From: a virus
DNA length: 29,278 bases
Virus record (IMG/VR): IMGVR_UViG_3300009034_000171
Span: 1 to 29,278 of that record
Direction: 5' to 3' (one strand)
Every line of letters begins with the position of its first letter. Position 1 is the stretch's first letter. Positions 1,151 through 25,611 of this stretch are shown here, piece after piece. The notes beneath the pieces are model-generated. The model did no database searches. It was not told where the DNA came from and was given only the letters and a program-made list of their open reading frames with translations. Position numbers and translations under genes: made by a program.

Positions 1151-2488
1151 CTATCGTATGCCCAAAGATTCATGACTCCTACTCTGTGAACTACTAACAA
1201 CTCTGATTCTCAATTTGAATAGAGTATAAACCCCATATCGCATCGCATCCATCCCATCATCTTTGTCTTTGACCATATCCTCTTTCGTCTTCAGATTCGC
1301 CCACAAGTATGTCGGGAACTCCTCAACTGTGGATGTCGGCCTGCGATTCATCAGAAGCCGCTGATCCAACTCTACCAAAGAGCCGACCAGAAAGAACATC
1401 CGATCCTCTTCTATCAGCTTATAAACCTGCTCCTGGCCACCCAAACGGGACTTTTTGGCGTTGACTGTCTTCACGCCTTCGGAGCGCAAGACAGCCGCTC
1501 CATGTGCATCATGATCGCAGATTACTTTGGCTTCAATTCCATCATGGAGGCAAAACTGGACGATCTCTTTCGCATGGTCAGATACTAACCTGTTACTCAT
1601 ATAGATTTCGCGATACATATACCAGAAATCGCCAGGAGAAATAGCCCACCATTGACACACAAATGGATGGTCAAACCCGAAATCTACAGTGATAACACGC
1701 CGCCAATCGTCCGGGATTTTCAAGAGACTAGTCCGCGCGGTGAACTGCTCCATAGTTATCAGATGCTTAGTTGGATCAAACGGATAAACCATCCCTTCCG
1801 CAGCAACCCACATACCATCTCTATATCTCAGCCTGAAGACGCCAGTAAGTTGGTCAAGCCGCTGATAGTATATTGGCGGCAAATCTGGAAGGATTTGGCC
1901 CTGAATCTCTCTATAGCCATCGAGCTTATTGGTGAAAAAGCGACTGTAGAGCCAATGGGCAGGAGCGTCTGGATTGGAAAGCAGAAACGCTTGATGGAAG
2001 CCAACACCCGGAAGCCGCAAACACCGGAGAATTTGAGTCTCAAAATCTTCTTCAGTAATCTCCTTAGCCTCTTCTACTACAATAAGACCATATTCGCGGG
2101 AGGCTAACTTCGTGACTTCCTTTGTGGAGTCCAGACCACATCCCCAGAACTCTGTGCCATTGTTAATCTTTCGATATAATAGACTATCATTCGACCTGAC
2201 AACTAAACTCGGTGGCAGAACTTCGTCAATAAATTTCTTCCAAAGAGTCGGCACTAAGTCAACGCGCTTCTTCCGAACCAAAGCGATGCAATTGTTAGGA
2301 AACAATATGCCCACGCCAAAGGCCTTCGCCGCGCCTACATGCGTCTTTCCACTTCCCCAAGGCCCATGAAATAGTAGCGTTGGACTATTATCATCAAGTG
2401 CCTCCGCTTGTGGCTGATTCTTTGCCACAAACTCACGCTCTCCCTCTTCCTCAGATATGCCTTCATAATCTATAAGGACTGTGCTCAT
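1151..2488 (-). CDS. terL: terminase large subunit (ATPase-nuclease)
   Basis: 445 residues, normal length for the PBSX/Terminase_3 type. It is the packaging motor that translocates and cuts phage DNA at the portal. The ATPase half shows Walker A GPWGSGKT (residues 42-49), Walker B with the catalytic Glu in YGLIVVEEAKE (about 133-143) and the coupling motif LLSNP (169-173). The nuclease half shows the RNase H-like acidic residues: Asp269 in ITVDFGFD, Asp325 in VICDHDAHG, and Asp411/Asp414 in KDKDDGMDAMRYG. The ATG overlaps the terS stop by four bases (ATGA), with AGGA before it. All expected motifs are present, so it should be functional. Confidence 0.95.
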   Translation of the reverse strand: MSTVLIDYEGISEEEGEREFVAKNQPQAEALDDNSPTLLFHGPWGSGKTHVGAAKAFGVGILFPNNCIALVRKKRVDLVPTLWKKFIDEVLPPSLVVRSNDSLLYRKINNGTEFWGCGLDSTKEVTKLASREYGLIVVEEAKEITEEDFETQILRCLRLPGVGFHQAFLLSNPDAPAHWLYSRFFTNKLDGYREIQGQILPDLPPIYYQRLDQLTGVFRLRYRDGMWVAAEGMVYPFDPTKHLITMEQFTARTSLLKIPDDWRRVITVDFGFDHPFVCQWWAISPGDFWYMYREIYMSNRLVSDHAKEIVQFCLHDGIEAKVICDHDAHGAAVLRSEGVKTVNAKKSRLGGQEQVYKLIEEDRMFFLVGSLVELDQRLLMNRRPTSTVEEFPTYLWANLKTKEDMVKDKDDGMDAMRYGVYTLFKLRIRVVSSSQSRSHESLGIR

Positions 2489-2916
2489 TTGTCCTTCCTC
2501 ATTGCGAGGATCTTCTCCATAGTGACACCAACGAACTTGAAGGCAACTGGGCGGGATTCTGTGCCACCATGCTCAACCTTTTCAATAGGCTTCAATCCAA
2601 CACGATCAAGAGCGTCTTTCACCGCTGATAATTTTATGCCATCTATCTCCGGCTTATCGACCATATTGTATAGCTCTTCAACTGCTCTCTGGCCAATTCT
2701 GCCTAAACGTATTCTATTAGCCCTTTCTATCACCTCCAAGCGGCGCGCAATTTCCTCCTGAACTCCAATATTTTCCAATAATTGATAAGCACCGGCAGAA
2801 GCGACATGATCGTCTTTTGGACTGTAGCCAGCGTCTTTGTACGCATTTATCTGTGTCTTGCCCTCGAATAAGCCATCCACAAACTTGCGCTGTTTTAGAT
2901 TCAATTTCTTACTCAT
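2485..2916 (-). CDS. terS: terminase small subunit
   Basis: 143 residues, typical of the Terminase_2/XtmA small subunit, which binds the packaging start site and recruits TerL. The N-terminus LNLKQRKFVDGLFEGKTQINAYKDAGY is the family's helix-turn-helix DNA-binding segment (quoted here only as its landmark KQRKFV...AYKDAGY), followed by a helical oligomerisation core and a C-terminal tail. The assignment also rests on the four-base overlap with terL. Upstream are 65 bases that separate it from the last mom gene and hold the 3' half of a tRNA-like element. The ribosome site is weak (AGGAACGACGCTC then ATG), so its start is less certain than most here. Confidence 0.9.
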   Translation of the reverse strand: MSKKLNLKQRKFVDGLFEGKTQINAYKDAGYSPKDDHVASAGAYQLLENIGVQEEIARRLEVIERANRIRLGRIGQRAVEELYNMVDKPEIDGIKLSAVKDALDRVGLKPIEKVEHGGTESRPVAFKFVGVTMEKILAMRKDK

Positions 2917-2948: not shown

Positions 2949-3018
2949 TGGAGCGGACGAACGGAGTTGAACCGCCACTCTCTAGCTGGTCGCCAGAGCA
3001 CTGCCCTCAGGCGTCCGC
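2949..3018 (-). ncRNA. tRNA-like element with encoded CCA at the mom-terS junction
   Basis: On the minus strand, 70 bases carry the outer half of a tRNA. A perfect 7-bp acceptor stem (GCGGACG with CGTCCGC) is followed by discriminator T and an encoded CCA. A 5-bp T stem (GGCGG/CCGTT, two G-T pairs) encloses the loop TTCAACT. The inner 35 bases are not canonical: they can form a 3-bp D-like stem (GAG/CTC) or a 6-bp stem (CTCTGG/CTAGAG) with loop CGACCAG, which lacks the usual U33. The element overlaps the last 12 codons of the upstream mom gene. Possible roles, all inferred: RNase P processing between mom and terS, a packaging or regulatory signal, or a decayed tRNA. Confidence 0.6.
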
Positions 3019-3626
3019 TTCGGATATGGAATCGCAAGGGGGAGAATCTTTCTCCGCATCCCCCTATCCAGGGGATACAGATACTTATACTTTACACCAG
3101 TCTCAACCCTACACACATGCGGATCTATCTTTCTAAGAATTTCCATCCTGGTCGTGCCATACTTCCCCTGTAATGTGCGAGGATGCTCTACTTTCCCAAA
3201 TATTCTAATATGTTTCGCGCTCCTAGTTCCAACGAAAATCCAATTCGATGCCTGATAGATGATACCAAGATGCCCTTGACCATCATCTGCATATGACACA
3301 CAAAGCCGCAATCCCGGATTAGCCCCTTTCAATAATCTAATTGCAGCCGCTAGCACTTGACTAACAGGTGTCTCATGCCGCCGCATCGCTACCCTCAAAC
3401 ATTCACATACTTCCTGTTGCTTCAAGGCATATGGCTTTCCAATATTAGGAGTCGCACCCAATCCAAAGACGATAGCACCAATAAATTGACCATTCTCCCA
3501 AACGCCGATCTTAGCCAATTTGCTAGCTGGCATAGCTCTACTATAATGCCAGTGTTTAACAGCATACTTCGCCGCTTCGTGACTACACCAATCAACTACA
3601 AGACCATTCTTTTGAGCAAAATTCAC
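2982..3626 (-). CDS. mom: Mom-type adenine modification protein, copy 1
   Basis: 214 residues, resembling the phage Mu Mom family (GNAT-like fold). In Mu, Mom converts adenine in DNA to N6-(methylcarbamoyl)adenine and so blocks host restriction. Visible signatures are VDWCSHEAAKYAVKHWHYS near the N-terminus, KIGVWENGQFIGAIVFG, VCECLRVAM, GLRLCVSYADDGQGHLGIIY, a KYGTT segment and YPLDRGMRRKILPLA near the end. The GTG start lies one base after the previous stop (TGATGTG), implying translational coupling; it aligns with the starts of both sister genes. The C-terminus runs about ten residues beyond copy 2, into the tRNA-like element. Family assignment is by motif memory; enzymatic chemistry in this phage is inferred. 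Confidence 0.85.
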   Translation of the reverse strand: MNFAQKNGLVVDWCSHEAAKYAVKHWHYSRAMPASKLAKIGVWENGQFIGAIVFGLGATPNIGKPYALKQQEVCECLRVAMRRHETPVSQVLAAAIRLLKGANPGLRLCVSYADDGQGHLGIIYQASNWIFVGTRSAKHIRIFGKVEHPRTLQGKYGTTRMEILRKIDPHVCRVETGVKYKYLYPLDRGMRRKILPLAIPYPKRTPEGSALATS

Positions 3627-3627
3627 A

Positions 3628-4251
3628 TCAATTCCCATCACGCTTCGGATATGGCATCGCCAGTGGCATAATCCGCCTTCGCATCCCTCTATCAAGTGGA
3701 TACAGATATTTGTACTTCACAGCCATTTTAACCCAACAAGCATCCGCATCAAAAGTTCTGAGCACATCTATCGCTGTCGTGCCATATTCAGCGGAGATAG
3801 ATCGCTTATGTCTGATTTGCCCGAATATCCTAATCTCGTCTTGCTCCGCAGTTCCAACGAAGACCCAATTAGATGCCTGATAAATAATCCCCAGATGCCC
3901 CTGCCCATCGTCCGCATAAGATATGCAAAGTCGTAAGCCGGGATTACCTTTTTTCAATAATGCTATTGCTAAACTCAGTATCCTGCTAACAGGTGTATGA
4001 TGGCTACGCATCGCTACCCGGATACATTCACAAACCTGGTCTTGACTTAACCCATAAGGACTCCCTATCCTGTAGTTTGCCCCACGCCCGAATATGATCG
4101 CTCCGATAAACCCTCCGTGCTCCCAAACTCCAATCTTGACCAACTTCCCAAATGGCATAGTCTCCTTATAATGCCAACGTTGACAAGCATACTCCGCAGC
4201 CTCGTGGCTACACCAATCAACTTTCAGGTCAACCTTCTGAGATACACTCAC
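3628..4251 (-). CDS. mom: Mom-type adenine modification protein, copy 2
   Basis: 207 residues, the closest paralogue of copy 1. The two share long identical stretches, including ADDGQGHLGIIYQASNW and YKYLYPLDRGMRR, so a recent duplication is likely. The motif order is the same: VDWCSHEAAEYAC, KIGVWEHGGFIGAIIFGRG, VCECIRVAM, RLCISYADD and a C-terminal LAMPYPKR. I choose the GTG at 4251, six bases after GAGG, because it aligns with copies 1 and 3; a TTG at 4263 in the same frame is possible. It overlaps the end of copy 3 by 23 bases. Keeping two near-identical copies suggests distinct sequence targets or dosage, but neither is shown. Confidence 0.85.
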   Translation of the reverse strand: MSVSQKVDLKVDWCSHEAAEYACQRWHYKETMPFGKLVKIGVWEHGGFIGAIIFGRGANYRIGSPYGLSQDQVCECIRVAMRSHHTPVSRILSLAIALLKKGNPGLRLCISYADDGQGHLGIIYQASNWVFVGTAEQDEIRIFGQIRHKRSISAEYGTTAIDVLRTFDADACWVKMAVKYKYLYPLDRGMRRRIMPLAMPYPKRDGN

Positions 4252-4894
4252 TTTGATCCTCAACTCTCCGTTTGGGATATGGCTTGGCTAATGATTGGAT
4301 CTTGCGCCGCATCGCCCTATCCAATGGGAAGAAGTATCGATGCTTTCTGCTACTTCTAACTAAAACCACTTCATCTGGTTTAGCGCACCTATAATGCCGA
4401 CCAAACTTGGTAGTCCAACCTGATGCTGTGACATTTTTCTGATGATAGATTTTTCCAGTTTTTTTGTGCCTGTATAGTCCGGTAGGATCTGTGAGACCTG
4501 TGTAAATCCAATTAGTTGCTTGATAAATGCCGCCATGATGATTCATATACAAATCCGCGAACGACACCAATAGCCGCAAGTTAGGAGAGAGTTCCCGGAG
4601 TTTACGAATAGCTATGGAGAGGATTTTGGAGACGGGCGTTATGTGCGTATCTAAGGCGATTCTCACACATTCAGCAACCTGCATCTTATCAATACCGCAA
4701 TAGAGTTTGGTGCGTCCTAACAGGCCATCACCAAAGATAACGCATCCAATAAATGCCCCATTCTCCCAGACTCCGATCTTGACGAGTCTACCAATAGGAA
4801 TTGATCGACTATAATGCCAACGTTCACAAGCATATTTAGCGGCTTGGTGACTACACCAATCTACAACAAGATCAGCTTTTTGGGATGAATTCAT
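4229..4894 (-). CDS. mom: Mom-type adenine modification protein, divergent copy 3
   Basis: 221 residues and the first mom gene of the triplet in transcription order. The N-terminal core is conserved (VDWCSHQAAKYACERWHYS, KIGVWENGAFIGCVIFGDG, VAECVRIAL, LRLLVSFADLYMNHHGGIY). The C-terminal part carries a longer basic insert (TGLYRHKKTGKIYHQKNVT) before FPLDRAMRRKIQSLAKPYPKR. The ATG at 4894 has CGGAG eight bases upstream. It begins inside the last 23 bases of the ParB-like gene, so the two are translationally coupled. The insert falls where target or cofactor specificity could differ from the other two copies; that is inference. Confidence 0.85.
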   Translation of the reverse strand: MNSSQKADLVVDWCSHQAAKYACERWHYSRSIPIGRLVKIGVWENGAFIGCVIFGDGLLGRTKLYCGIDKMQVAECVRIALDTHITPVSKILSIAIRKLRELSPNLRLLVSFADLYMNHHGGIYQATNWIYTGLTDPTGLYRHKKTGKIYHQKNVTASGWTTKFGRHYRCAKPDEVVLVRSSRKHRYFFPLDRAMRRKIQSLAKPYPKRRVEDQSECISEG

Positions 4895-5381
4895 GTCCAC
4901 ACTCCGGGCAAACAATGGGAGATTTCTGGTCAAGTCTTGGTTGCTGACCTTGAGTCGTCGGCTCGAATGCAGGAATCTCAATCTCCTCTTGCGTGAATCC
5001 AGTTCGTTCGATCTCAACGCCCATGTCTTGTAACTCACGAATCAGCACATCACGTTCTTCGATATTCCACGATGATCGCTCCTGGAGTTTGTTATCAGCA
5101 ATCATCCACGCTTCTGCCTTGCCCTCTGGGAAATCCAGTTCCATCATCCAAGATCCAGTCTTGCCCTCTTTCTTCTTTGCCTCGATCAAGCCATGCCCGG
5201 TCAACACATAGCCCGTAGACTTCTGGAAAGAGATTGCTATTTTGCCATCTCCATACTCTTGTATGCTCCTTTGAAGCCACTGGATTTGGTCTTCTGTGTG
5301 AATGCGGGGATTCCTGGGATGAGGTTCCACCTCCGAAAATTCCTTCCAGACGATTTTCGGCTTAATTCGCTTTTCGTCCAT
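4872..5381 (-). CDS. ParB-like domain protein with C-terminal zinc ribbon
   Basis: 169 residues. The start resembles ParB/Srx-type domains (ParBc): VWKEFSEVEPHPRNPRIHTEDQ, a helix QIQWLQRSIQEYG, then GYVLTGHGLIEAKKKEG, where the family usually has GHGR; here the Arg is Leu. A SAM-methylase partner domain, common in phage ParB-methylase fusions, is absent. The last 20 residues hold CPECGH, a half zinc knuckle. ATG at 5381 has GGAGG six bases upstream, and the QueD-like stop lies four bases before it. Its link to three mom genes suggests DNA targeting or a cofactor role in modification; this is inferred from position only. Nuclease activity, reported for some relatives, cannot be judged. Confidence 0.72.
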   Translation of the reverse strand: MDEKRIKPKIVWKEFSEVEPHPRNPRIHTEDQIQWLQRSIQEYGDGKIAISFQKSTGYVLTGHGLIEAKKKEGKTGSWMMELDFPEGKAEAWMIADNKLQERSSWNIEERDVLIRELQDMGVEIERTGFTQEEIEIPAFEPTTQGQQPRLDQKSPIVCPECGHEFIPKS

Positions 5382-5384
5382 CAA

Positions 5385-5843
5385 CTACCTCCCGATATTT
5401 GAGCACCTAACTTGTCCTACAAGTTCTCCAGTCTCCAGATCCGCCACAGTTTGTAAACGAGGATCGCATATCACTGGCTCTGGAAAGTATAGAACCGATC
5501 CATGCTTTGGAGTGGATACTCTCACAGACTCATGCGGCGACTCTATAAGCTCAGAAAGCCATTTGGCGATATTTGCCGATGTGGGATTAAAGTCAAATAC
5601 ATCATTAAGAACTTCATGATGCGGCAATAATGTATGTAGACCATCTCTTAACGTTGAAACGTTAGGCAATAGTCCCTCTATTGGTCTCCCATCAAGCCCA
5701 AGCGTATTCTTGCCAAGATCGCTATCCTCATAGATATAGACGACCTCAACCGTCCATGTATGCCCATGCAGTCTGGAGTGAGAGCCACAGCCCTCAATCA
5801 AATGCGCAGCATCAAACGTTCCATCAATTGGTACTCTGAACAT
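5385..5843 (-). CDS. QueD/6-pyruvoyl-tetrahydropterin synthase-like protein, altered active site
   Basis: 152 residues. The fold signature of the PTPS/QueD family is clear: FDAAHLIEG (zinc His14), RLHGHTWTVEV (zinc His26 and His28) and NPTSANIAKWL. In QueD this zinc enzyme turns dihydroneopterin triphosphate into carboxytetrahydropterin, on the path to preQ0 and deazaguanines. Several catalytic positions differ: His22 stands where the catalytic Cys is expected, His75 replaces Asp in the LDH triad motif, Ala90 replaces Glu in PT-EN, and the late Glu is missing. It may use another pterin-like substrate or be a binding protein. It is first in the mom-ter operon, with ATG five bases after GGAG and a promoter just upstream. 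No QueC or QueE gene is in view. Confidence 0.75.
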   Translation of the reverse strand: MFRVPIDGTFDAAHLIEGCGSHSRLHGHTWTVEVVYIYEDSDLGKNTLGLDGRPIEGLLPNVSTLRDGLHTLLPHHEVLNDVFDFNPTSANIAKWLSELIESPHESVRVSTPKHGSVLYFPEPVICDPRLQTVADLETGELVGQVRCSNIGR

Positions 5844-5864
5844 AATAGCTCCTCTCAATCTTGT

Positions 5865-7931: not shown

Positions 7932-8762
7932 CTATGCCGCCGCTTTTTGCTCCGTCTCCAGCGACTCTACTAATGATCCGACAATTTCTTTGACAGCTTT
8001 GCTGATGCTTTGCATGGAAGCCATCATTTTCTCGTGGTCGCCATTCCATGATGCTATGTATACAGCACTCTTGCTCTCCAGACCGAAGTGGGTCAAAACC
8101 ACATGCGTTACTGATTCTGCCTCGATCTCACGCTGCTCGCTGCTGATTTCTCGATTCTGTCTATGGAGAATTTCATGAGCTATTTCGTGGATTGTTGTCC
8201 CAACCTGCTCATTGACGGTATTGTCACCATTGATCTCAATCTTGCCGCCAGAAGATACACCGCCAACTCCCCATCCCAATTTGGTGAAGTCAACAGCAAT
8301 GCCCTTGTCTTTGCAAAGACTTAGAAGACCATCCAGAAATGGTCTCCACGAGTCGTCACTCACGCGATGATCTGGGATTGGAAGTGGATCGCCGTCAGTC
8401 TGAGAGATGTCGAATACGGAGACTGAGAAGAAATACCTGACCATTTTCTCAGTTTCATCTCCATTGTCGTCAGTCTCTATTCGCTTCGATTGACCTGGAG
8501 CAAGTATCCTAATCGACTTCTCGCCCTTCTGGACTTGCCTGCCCATCTTCTGCCATGCTTTGTAACCAGCAACGAGTGTTGCATCTGGATTCTGAATCAT
8601 AATAAGCATCTGATTATGAAAGCTGTATTTGTGAAATTTGCTCATCACTTCCACAAACTTAGTGAACTCCTCTGACTGCTTAACCTCGTCCGTTTCGGCT
8701 GCCAGTTCCTTCAAACGATTCTCAACGTCTATAACCAATTTCCTTGCTTTTTCGCCCATCAT
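7932..8762 (-). CDS. ArdC-type antirestriction protein with zincin domain
   Basis: 276 residues. The N-terminal part matches the ArdC N-terminal domain: FHKYSFHNQMLIMIQNPDAT, then AGYKAWQKMGRQVQKGEKSI and IRILAP. In relatives it binds single-stranded DNA and helps incoming DNA escape restriction. The C-terminal part is a zinc metallopeptidase: HEIAH (residues 192-196) and a downstream Glu in EIEAESVTH as probable third ligand. GGAGG precedes tandem ATGs at 8762 and 8759; either may be used. A regulatory inverted repeat lies directly upstream. With mom and methylase genes in the same window it fits a layered defence against restriction; target cleavage has not been shown here. Confidence 0.85.
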   Translation of the reverse strand: MMGEKARKLVIDVENRLKELAAETDEVKQSEEFTKFVEVMSKFHKYSFHNQMLIMIQNPDATLVAGYKAWQKMGRQVQKGEKSIRILAPGQSKRIETDDNGDETEKMVRYFFSVSVFDISQTDGDPLPIPDHRVSDDSWRPFLDGLLSLCKDKGIAVDFTKLGWGVGGVSSGGKIEINGDNTVNEQVGTTIHEIAHEILHRQNREISSEQREIEAESVTHVVLTHFGLESKSAVYIASWNGDHEKMMASMQSISKAVKEIVGSLVESLETEQKAAA

Positions 8763-24656: not shown

Positions 24657-25427
24657 CTAATATGTCAACGCCATCTCTCCCTGCGCTGTCAGCTTCTCCA
24701 TTCTCACCTTGCCCTCTGTGATGTACTCCTCGCTTAACTCCATGCCAATATAATGCCTCTTCATCTGGCGACAAGCGATTGCTGTCGTCAAACATCCCAT
24801 GAATGGATCAAGGACGACATGACATGGATTCGTGAACGCCCTCAAAACCTCCCGCGTCAATGCCAGCGATGTCTGCCCCGGATTAGTCGTGCGCCCCTCT
24901 TTGTAGTAGAATCCCTCTCCTGGAAGTCGGATGTTTTTCCACAAGTCTTTTATTGATTGTCCCTTTGGCTGATCTACTGCCCACGATGTTGTCAAGAGAC
25001 CATGCCATTGCATAGCAATTCGCGTGCTCCCAAACTTGTTGCCGGCGGCTCGCTTCTCTACAATGATCAACTTGGCTTCTGGCATCATGCTCCAGAAGGT
25101 ACGGACTCGCTCTTGGCATAGAAAGATAGCCACGCCATTTCGGGAGATCCTGTGCGCTTGATATAGGACATCCGAATGGAATCGCCAATACTGACGCGGC
25201 TCAAGGTTATCCCTAAAGACTCCATAATTTTTCTTTTTGTTGTATGGTGGATCATAAAATACGAGCTGGACACTGTTGGCAGGCATTCCTTTCATCATAT
25301 CCAGACAGTTAGCGCAATATACCTTGTCTATCTCTGGCATCTCACCAGTTGAATGAAGAAAATCTCTCCTCTCAGTGGATGGATATTGTGATGCCGTTTC
25401 TTGTAACTTATTCTTTCTCTGGCTCAT
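24657..25427 (-). CDS. DPPY-type DNA methyltransferase (N6-adenine or N4-cytosine)
   Basis: 256 residues. Motif IV DPPY is at about residue 60 (VQLVFYDPPYNKKKN), and the SAM-binding motif I lies near the C-terminus (VVLDPFMGCLTTAIACRQMK, then YIGMELSEEY): the beta-class order. In motif I the usual GSGTT reads GCLTT, a notable change near the SAM pocket. The enzyme would methylate amino groups in DNA, giving protection from restriction. ATG 25427 follows GGAGG by nine bases and overlaps the upstream gene by 20. Target sequence cannot be deduced. No endonuclease gene lies beside it, so it is an orphan methylase. Confidence 0.85.
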   Translation of the reverse strand: MSQRKNKLQETASQYPSTERRDFLHSTGEMPEIDKVYCANCLDMMKGMPANSVQLVFYDPPYNKKKNYGVFRDNLEPRQYWRFHSDVLYQAHRISRNGVAIFLCQERVRTFWSMMPEAKLIIVEKRAAGNKFGSTRIAMQWHGLLTTSWAVDQPKGQSIKDLWKNIRLPGEGFYYKEGRTTNPGQTSLALTREVLRAFTNPCHVVLDPFMGCLTTAIACRQMKRHYIGMELSEEYITEGKVRMEKLTAQGEMALTY

Positions 25428-25611
25428 CAGAAACCCCCTCCAACTCATTTTCATGATACCAGGTTATATTTTCCTCCAATCGCCTATCCAAGCGATAATG
25501 ATTTTCGATTGTCGTTTCCCACACTTGCACGACTTTGGCATGACAAACAGGCCCAGACTGCAATCTGACTGACACCAAATCGCCAACATTAAACTTCGGA
25601 CTCTCGCTCAT
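25408..25611 (-). CDS. small SH3/KOW-like hypothetical protein
   Basis: 67 residues. FNVGDLVSVRLQSGPVCHAK, then VVQVWETTIENHYRLDRR and TWYHENEL, has the strand pattern and VGD turn of a small SH3-like barrel. ATG seven bases after GGGAGG. It immediately precedes and overlaps the methylase, so an accessory DNA-binding role is possible but unproven. Confidence 0.58.
   Translation of the reverse strand: MSESPKFNVGDLVSVRLQSGPVCHAKVVQVWETTIENHYRLDRRLEENITWYHENELEGVSDEPEKE

Follow-up and report, generated by a model that had tools for sequence, protein, structure and literature searches.

The product of Mom is a glycinamide on adenine N6 (N6-glycinamide). To our knowledge, the source of this modification has been an open question since the work on phage Mu in the 1970s and 1980s, and published work on Mom chemistry is said to propose acetyl-CoA plus iron. 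One account, in the part available to us, has Mom transferring an acyl group, for which glycyl is given as an example, from a CoA donor to adenine N6 (PMC7824862). A glycine tRNA used outside translation has been described in Staphylococcus aureus, whose non-proteinogenic tRNA-Gly (pentaglycine bridges, FemXAB) is, according to the accessible portions of two papers, kept off translation by T-stem changes that make for weak EF-Tu binding and by the loss of G18G19 (PMC4052509, PMC8007984). A tRNA-like sequence has also been reported in a mom gene. In the available part of that study, ssrA genomic islands of Dehalococcoides contain a 76-bp tRNA-Gly–like "pseudo-tRNA" within the first 150 bp of a Mom homologue, in 16 copies, and one fosmid has a tRNA embedded in mom (PMC3146451, 2011). 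This was the only tRNA-like locus in mom that we met in a full-text search of mainly open-access journal papers, and the same search found no paper linking a tRNA to Mom function. The locus described here has a tRNA-like element at the other end of the gene, and mom-adjacent look-alikes of glycine tRNA are a widespread, previously unnamed family.

A tRNA-like element at the end of a mom gene

The window (the whole 29,278-nucleotide stretch of viral DNA analysed, IMG/VR record IMGVR_UViG_3300009034_000171) carries, in the direction of mom transcription, QueD-like and ParB-like genes, three tandem mom genes, the element, terS, and terL (Table 1). The three mom genes score 154.3, 143.2, and 150.7 bits against PF25680, for which the cut-off is 27.1, and modelling of copy 1 predicts a GNAT fold whose nearest neighbor is Mu Mom (8bv8; 191 residues aligned with an rmsd of 3.8, Z 20.5). 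A ParB gene upstream of mom is also found in Arthrobacter, Microbacterium, and Enterococcus records. The three copies have diverged, copy 3 branching away from the other two on the Mom tree, and the RNA is found only with the one that is transcribed last. The QueD/PTPS-like gene (5385-5858) adjoins the ParB-mom cassette and possibly ties it to another base modification. The same contig encodes an anti-restriction–like protein (phrog_7245, 7932-8762) and a DNA methyltransferase (phrog_67, 24657-25454), and hence several anti-restriction layers.

Table 1. Genes around the tRNA-like element of the window, and the parts of the element
Feature	Position	Strand	Evidence or remark
mom copy 1 (PF25680)	2982..3638	minus	Pfam Mom 4.2e-45; phrog_1384 Mom-like 6.4e-54
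mom copy 2	3628..4263	minus	Pfam Mom 1.1e-41
mom copy 3	4229..4894	minus	Pfam Mom 5.3e-44
ParB-like gene, upstream of the mom copies	4872..5384	minus	phrog_620 2.4e-27
terS, next gene downstream of the element	2485..2916	minus	Terminase_2 1.3e-9
terL	1151..2488	minus	Terminase_3 2.1e-9; phrog_2 4.7e-35
mom-associated tRNA-Gly–like RNA, whole element	2949..3018	minus	70 nt, CCA encoded
Acceptor stem, 5' strand GCGGACG	3012..3018	minus	Pairs 7/7 with 2953-2959; G1, C2, G3 are in the GlyRS identity pairs
Acceptor stem, 3' strand CGTCCGC	2953..2959	minus	Acceptor helix covaries in 55 aligned relatives
Anticodon-like hairpin CTCTGG-(CGACCAG)-CTAGAG	2980..2998	minus	Stem 2998-2993/2985-2980
Anticodon-like loop CGACCAG	2992-2986	minus	G33, A34, C35 (2989), C36 (2988)
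T arm GGCGG-TTCAACT-CCGTT	2960..2976	minus	
Discriminator U73 (2952) and encoded CCA (2951-2949)	2949..2952	minus	

A preliminary description, made from the letters of the DNA, had placed the element at these 70 bases, with a 7-bp acceptor stem, a T arm with the loop TTCAACT, a discriminator, and an encoded CCA, all of which proved exact. It had also claimed an overlap with the last codons of mom copy 1, correctly, since the TAG stop codon of that gene (2984-2982) lies inside the element, within the anticodon-like stem. Its denial of a normal D and anticodon domain and of U33 was half right: there is no standard D arm, and position 33 is G, which sets the window element apart from canonical tRNAs, but an anticodon-like hairpin is present. 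This hairpin recurs, with an extra closing pair, in the predicted fold of the element, and its loop is also found in unrelated loci (e.g., L003 and L096). The T stem has two G:U pairs and no extra A, and one further A:U pair could lengthen the acceptor stem by one base.

The element is real, beyond what chance would give. Its pattern matches once in the window (both strands) versus not at all in 150 dinucleotide shuffles, which yield a mean of 0.013 matches when the T-loop rule is dropped. A covariance model built without it (R2) scores the window element at 42.7 bits (E 1.5e-5, 140,909 bases). Its folding energy is unremarkable (z -1.31, equalled by 22 of 200 shuffles). ARAGORN called no tRNA in the window, and no Rfam family reached its gathering score there, the canonical tRNA (RF00005) included; the best sub-threshold match, to tRNA-Sec (RF01852), had 17.7 bits (E 0.64) against a gathering score of 47.

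Linkage to mom and distribution

We collected 151 mom loci: those of the window and L003–L005, together with 15 from phage records, 80 from viral contigs, and 52 from bacterial contigs. A permissive scan, which left acceptor sequence, discriminator, and anticodon unconstrained, gave 80 matches at the mom 3' end, spread over 79 of the 151 loci (~6 expected), a proportion that is not a population frequency because the loci are the closest matches to a Mom alignment built partly from element-bearing loci. The background, flank and opposite strand amounting to 1.53 Mb, gave 415 matches. Two of the 80 matches are not proper elements, one (L084) having arisen by chance and one being the window element again, one base out of register. 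A stricter pattern finds the element in 77 of the 151 loci versus ~1.5 expected, and 12 further elements recognised by eye bring the total to 89. Model R1 added seven more, two of them after a second tandem mom (L028 and L089), four before mom (L145–L148), and one in L035; it also re-found the tRNA-Gly of phage Appa on the opposite strand. The L035 element (3638-3708) is strong (59.8 bits, R2) and lies 514 nt beyond mom; no further mom was detected in the interval. ARAGORN called 15 tRNAs on the 132 mom contigs (80 viral and 52 bacterial). Ten of these, seven tRNA-Gly and three unassigned, lie at -16 to +4 nt from the end of the mom match; the calls for other amino acids (three Trp, one Met, and one Leu) are more than 1.4 kb from mom.

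The linkage can also be approached from the RNA. A pattern made of the T arm and 3' end alone, run over viral contigs, matched at least 120 stretches. Among the 120 matches listed, 115 have a matching 5' acceptor strand, in 45 different sequences, and 113 have Mom on the same strand no more than 150 nt away, the order being mom then RNA in 68 and RNA then mom in 45. The other seven of the matches listed comprise two with Mom farther off and five with none, of which one starts within a mom C-terminus; RNA-first and mom-first sets are nearly separate, sharing their element in 5 of the 120. Six genes were sampled from the RNA-before-mom form, and all six are Pfam Mom. This form often precedes short, divergent Mom proteins (~190 aa, motif SYQD; L163, L169, L237, and L240), some of which match Pfam Mom more weakly (L163, 47.6 bits) and possibly have another target or product.

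The family is tied to mom, not to terS. A tie to the terminase boundary, where the window element was first placed, is not borne out by this comparison: the partner is mom, which the element follows in Arthrobacter phages where no terS comes after it, and which it precedes in 45 of the 120 matches listed.

On the Mom tree, loci with the element group together (14 changes versus 36.8 when shuffled), yet they are not confined to one clade. Element-bearing contigs are labelled Acidobacteriota, Planctomycetota, Pseudomonadota, Bacillota, Bacteroidota, Calditrichota, Myxococcota, Thermodesulfobacteriota, and Chloroflexota, and the element is also present in Arthrobacter and Salinibacter phages. No element was found near mom in the Mu, Enterococcus/Paenibacillus, Yersinia/Serratia, and Pseudonocardiaceae-labelled groups. 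Across 19 whole records, R1 found no match in 14, Mu and phiEf11 among them; in the other five it matched the element in B2_17 and Shade, the tRNA-Gly of Appa, an ordinary tRNA-Gly within a tRNA array of Listeria phage A511, and a stretch of Stickynote (30.8 bits). The sole annotated tRNA of Salinibacter phage B2_17, and likewise of Microbacterium phage Appa, is a tRNA-Gly adjoining mom. That of Appa (L012, 3127-3201, minus strand) is a complete tRNA-Gly(CCC), 33 nt past mom on the opposite strand.

Several narrower searches came back empty. The window's own T arm and acceptor, as an exact pattern, had no match in viral contigs, nor did Blastn with the elements of three relatives find any in isolate phages; plasmids yielded one Mom (Lactobacillus), without the element. 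A search seeded on TerS gave just two distant loci, and the element was found in neither. The element-less mom loci of Enterococcus, Paenibacillus, and Lysinibacillus (L008 2010-2035, L051, L085, L086, L106, and L123) have in common a hairpin with the loop GCGCTAAC (or GCGGTAAC) directly after mom, possibly a terminator or a second kind of mom-linked RNA.

Covariation and glycine identity

RNAalifold, applied to a MAFFT alignment of 66 non-redundant elements, recovered the acceptor stem only, one pair of which has changed on both sides in as many as 40 of the 66. It misses the inner arms because two length forms blur them, and the T arm and hairpin were therefore checked by segmentation and named pairs. 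In the acceptor and T stems of 55 elements (the window's left out), 97.7% of cells pair, and the covariation score is 0.500 versus 0.128 when shuffled and at most 0.070 when slid. The compensatory acceptor changes that the preliminary description had proposed to look for in relatives are thus clearly there. Paired changes separate even close Arthrobacter isolates, in the acceptor (GCGGTTC/GAACCGC versus GCGGTTG/CAACCGC) and in the T stem (CGAGG/CCTCG versus CGTGG/CCACG). Relative to the mom frame, 72 of the 89 elements lie wholly inside, 15 contain the stop codon (the window's among them), and two come after it. Those wholly inside start in all three mom frames (35/31/6), and therefore no single peptide is being conserved.

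The bacterial GlyRS identity set consists of N73 (U in bacteria), the pairs 1:72, 2:71, and 3:70, and C35 and C36, according to the accessible parts of two papers (PMC3990555, PMC9908026). The window element has all of it (G1:C72, C2:G71, G3:C70, U73, C35, and C36). Permissive-scan matches at the mom 3' end begin their acceptor with GCG in 78 of 80 cases (22 of 415 in the background), have U73 in 77 of 80 (106 of 415), and encode CCA in 56 of 80 (12 of 415); C35C36 is present in 56 of the 66 that have a hairpin with a 7-nt loop, versus 9 of 128 in the background. The three identity pairs are invariant in the 55-element alignment, partly because the search behind it demanded GCG/CGC, a demand that the permissive scan did not make. 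A hairpin of at least 4 bp with a 7-nt loop is found in 54 of the 66 non-redundant elements (28% in shuffles), the other 12 having none under the rule used. C35C36 occupies 45 of the 54 parsed loops, versus 5.8% in shuffles, and this is a low estimate because the longest-stem rule mis-picks some loci (the L009 loop CGTCCAG also has C35C36). One element, L097 1425-1501, has A73 in place of U73 (22.9 bits, R2), and perhaps suits a host GlyRS preferring A73.

Features of decoding fare poorly. U33 is present in 16 of the 54 parsed anticodon-like loops, and short-form members have no D arm. Of the 59 T arms that could be parsed, 49 contain an additional A on the 3' side of the stem, adjoining the pairs that EF-Tu reads, and 36 have G in place of U55. 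Among 20 relatives, four have an element that reaches the Rfam tRNA cut-off (L046 at 40.3 bits), and that of L009 is annotated as tRNA-Gly. The tRNA mimicry first suggested for the window element is strongly supported, and more specifically it is mimicry of tRNA-Gly: the family is a conserved, structured RNA, linked to mom in both directions, with the GlyRS identity set and poor decoding features.

A candidate glycyl donor for Mom

We think it probable, on the strength of sequence comparison, that the element is a dedicated, non-decoding mimic of tRNA-Gly which is charged with glycine and serves as the glycyl donor for Mom. The mimic would come from the 3'-terminal part of the mom transcript, where RNase P would cut at the start of the acceptor stem and the 3' end would be trimmed (or given a CCA if none is encoded), releasing an RNA of ~70–76 nt; where the element overlaps the mom frame, a transcript could yield either full-length mom mRNA or the RNA. 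Charging by the host glycyl-tRNA synthetase is inferred because the identity elements of that enzyme are conserved, and the loss of U33 and the D arm in many members, with the extra T-stem A in most relatives, may keep the mimic off EF-Tu and the ribosome. Mom, with its GNAT fold, would then move glycyl from the mimic onto adenine N6 in phage DNA, and rearrangement via a five-membered ring, an N-to-N shift of the Smiles type, would turn this into exactly N6-glycinamide from a single donor. Mom enzymes lacking a mimic would use host Gly-tRNA. We lean, if slightly, toward a broader proposal, in which Mom enzymes generally, that of Mu too, use glycyl-tRNA and not acyl-CoA, and many phages bring a pared-down glycyl-tRNA of their own, concealed within the mom frame, to supply the enzyme during the burst; transfer to N6 followed by the N-to-N shift would involve no radical chemistry.

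Against glycyl donation by the element, several Mom lineages, that of Mu included, are without it, the tRNA-Gly of Appa is on the opposite strand, and 12 of the 66 aligned elements gave no hairpin with a 7-nt loop under the rule used; the acetyl-CoA plus iron proposal likewise counts against it. After 8bv8, the other fold neighbors of the modelled window Mom are acetyl-CoA enzymes, a predicted resemblance that neither helps nor excludes such a mechanism, and the absence of an aminoacyl-tRNA transferase from the neighbors listed is not evidence that none exists.

RNase P cleavage, also raised in the preliminary description, is plausible as processing at the 5' end, an acceptor stem stacked on a T arm being a minimal RNase P substrate. 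As the sole function, with the element as a cleavage signal that separates mom from the genes after it in the polycistronic mRNA and so sets the mom level, it is unlikely. It would suit the overlap of most elements with the mom frame, and also the toxicity of Mom expressed out of context, as described in the accessible part of one report (PMC12707154), but it does not require the conserved C35C36, U73, and CCA, leaving the first two unexplained, and it accounts neither for the before-mom elements (45 of the 120 matches listed) nor for the opposite-strand Appa tRNA. Retention of GlyRS identity with loss of decoding elements would equally be expected of a GlyRS-binding decoy or a glycine-charging sensor, coupling mom to the state of the cell or starving the host without feeding Mom; we regard this as improbable, since neither device needs to be tied to mom, a gene for a glycine-type DNA modification, as the RNA is in 113 of 120 contigs among the matches listed.

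An ordinary phage tRNA-Gly, or the decaying remnant of one, retained for translation, is brought to mind by the few near-canonical members (L046 and L009), but four of the seven ARAGORN tRNA-Gly calls beside mom have the anticodon ACC, which the available text of one source calls universally missing (PMC8007984). With U33 mostly missing, short forms devoid of a D arm, and covariation strong enough to exclude decay, we give this explanation very little credence. Attachment sites are common at tRNA 3' ends, and terS follows the element in the window, so that a site for attachment or packaging with a tRNA gene as its origin might be considered, much as the preliminary description had imagined a mark for packaging or integration. 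Because the element follows mom where terS does not come next, and also precedes mom, such a mark is unlikely, and preservation of a whole structured element with compensatory changes makes a site of this kind the least credible explanation of all.

That diverse phages conserve a glycine-tRNA mimic next to mom is a direct pointer to glycyl-tRNA as the donor for Mom, and phages with the mom-linked mimic may decorate their DNA with glycine from a dedicated tRNA mimic. If so, aminoacyl-tRNA–dependent chemistry reaches DNA, beyond the cell wall, lipids, and peptides, with the RNA and the protein of one pathway encoded on overlapping bases. Were it true of Mom in general, this would be the first aminoacyl-tRNA–dependent modification of a DNA base. 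The elements would also give a new RNA family, absent from Rfam.

The systems known before differ from this one in several ways. The S. aureus tRNA-Gly is a nearly complete tRNA serving the cell wall, whereas the mom-linked RNA is reduced, overlaps mom, and would serve DNA. The three window genes are Mom by sequence, like that of phage Mu (8bv8, PF25680), and copy 1 also by its modelled fold; unlike the window, Mu has no such RNA near mom, and R1 finds none in the whole Mu record. The Dehalococcoides report, in the part available, treats its pseudo-tRNA as characteristic of one island type, where it belongs to an integration module and serves as a primer target, with no tie to Mom chemistry, no generalisation to phages, and no element after mom (PMC3146451); its main text uses neither the word glycine nor the word glycyl. 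Likened by its published description only, that locus is very likely the RNA-before-mom form of the family. Unlike bacterial tRNA-Gly, many mom-linked RNAs have lost U33 and the D arm, and 49 of 59 parsed relatives, though not the window element, have the extra T-stem A. They nevertheless share with bacterial tRNA-Gly the pairs G1:C72, C2:G71, and G3:C70, the discriminator U73, and C35 and C36.
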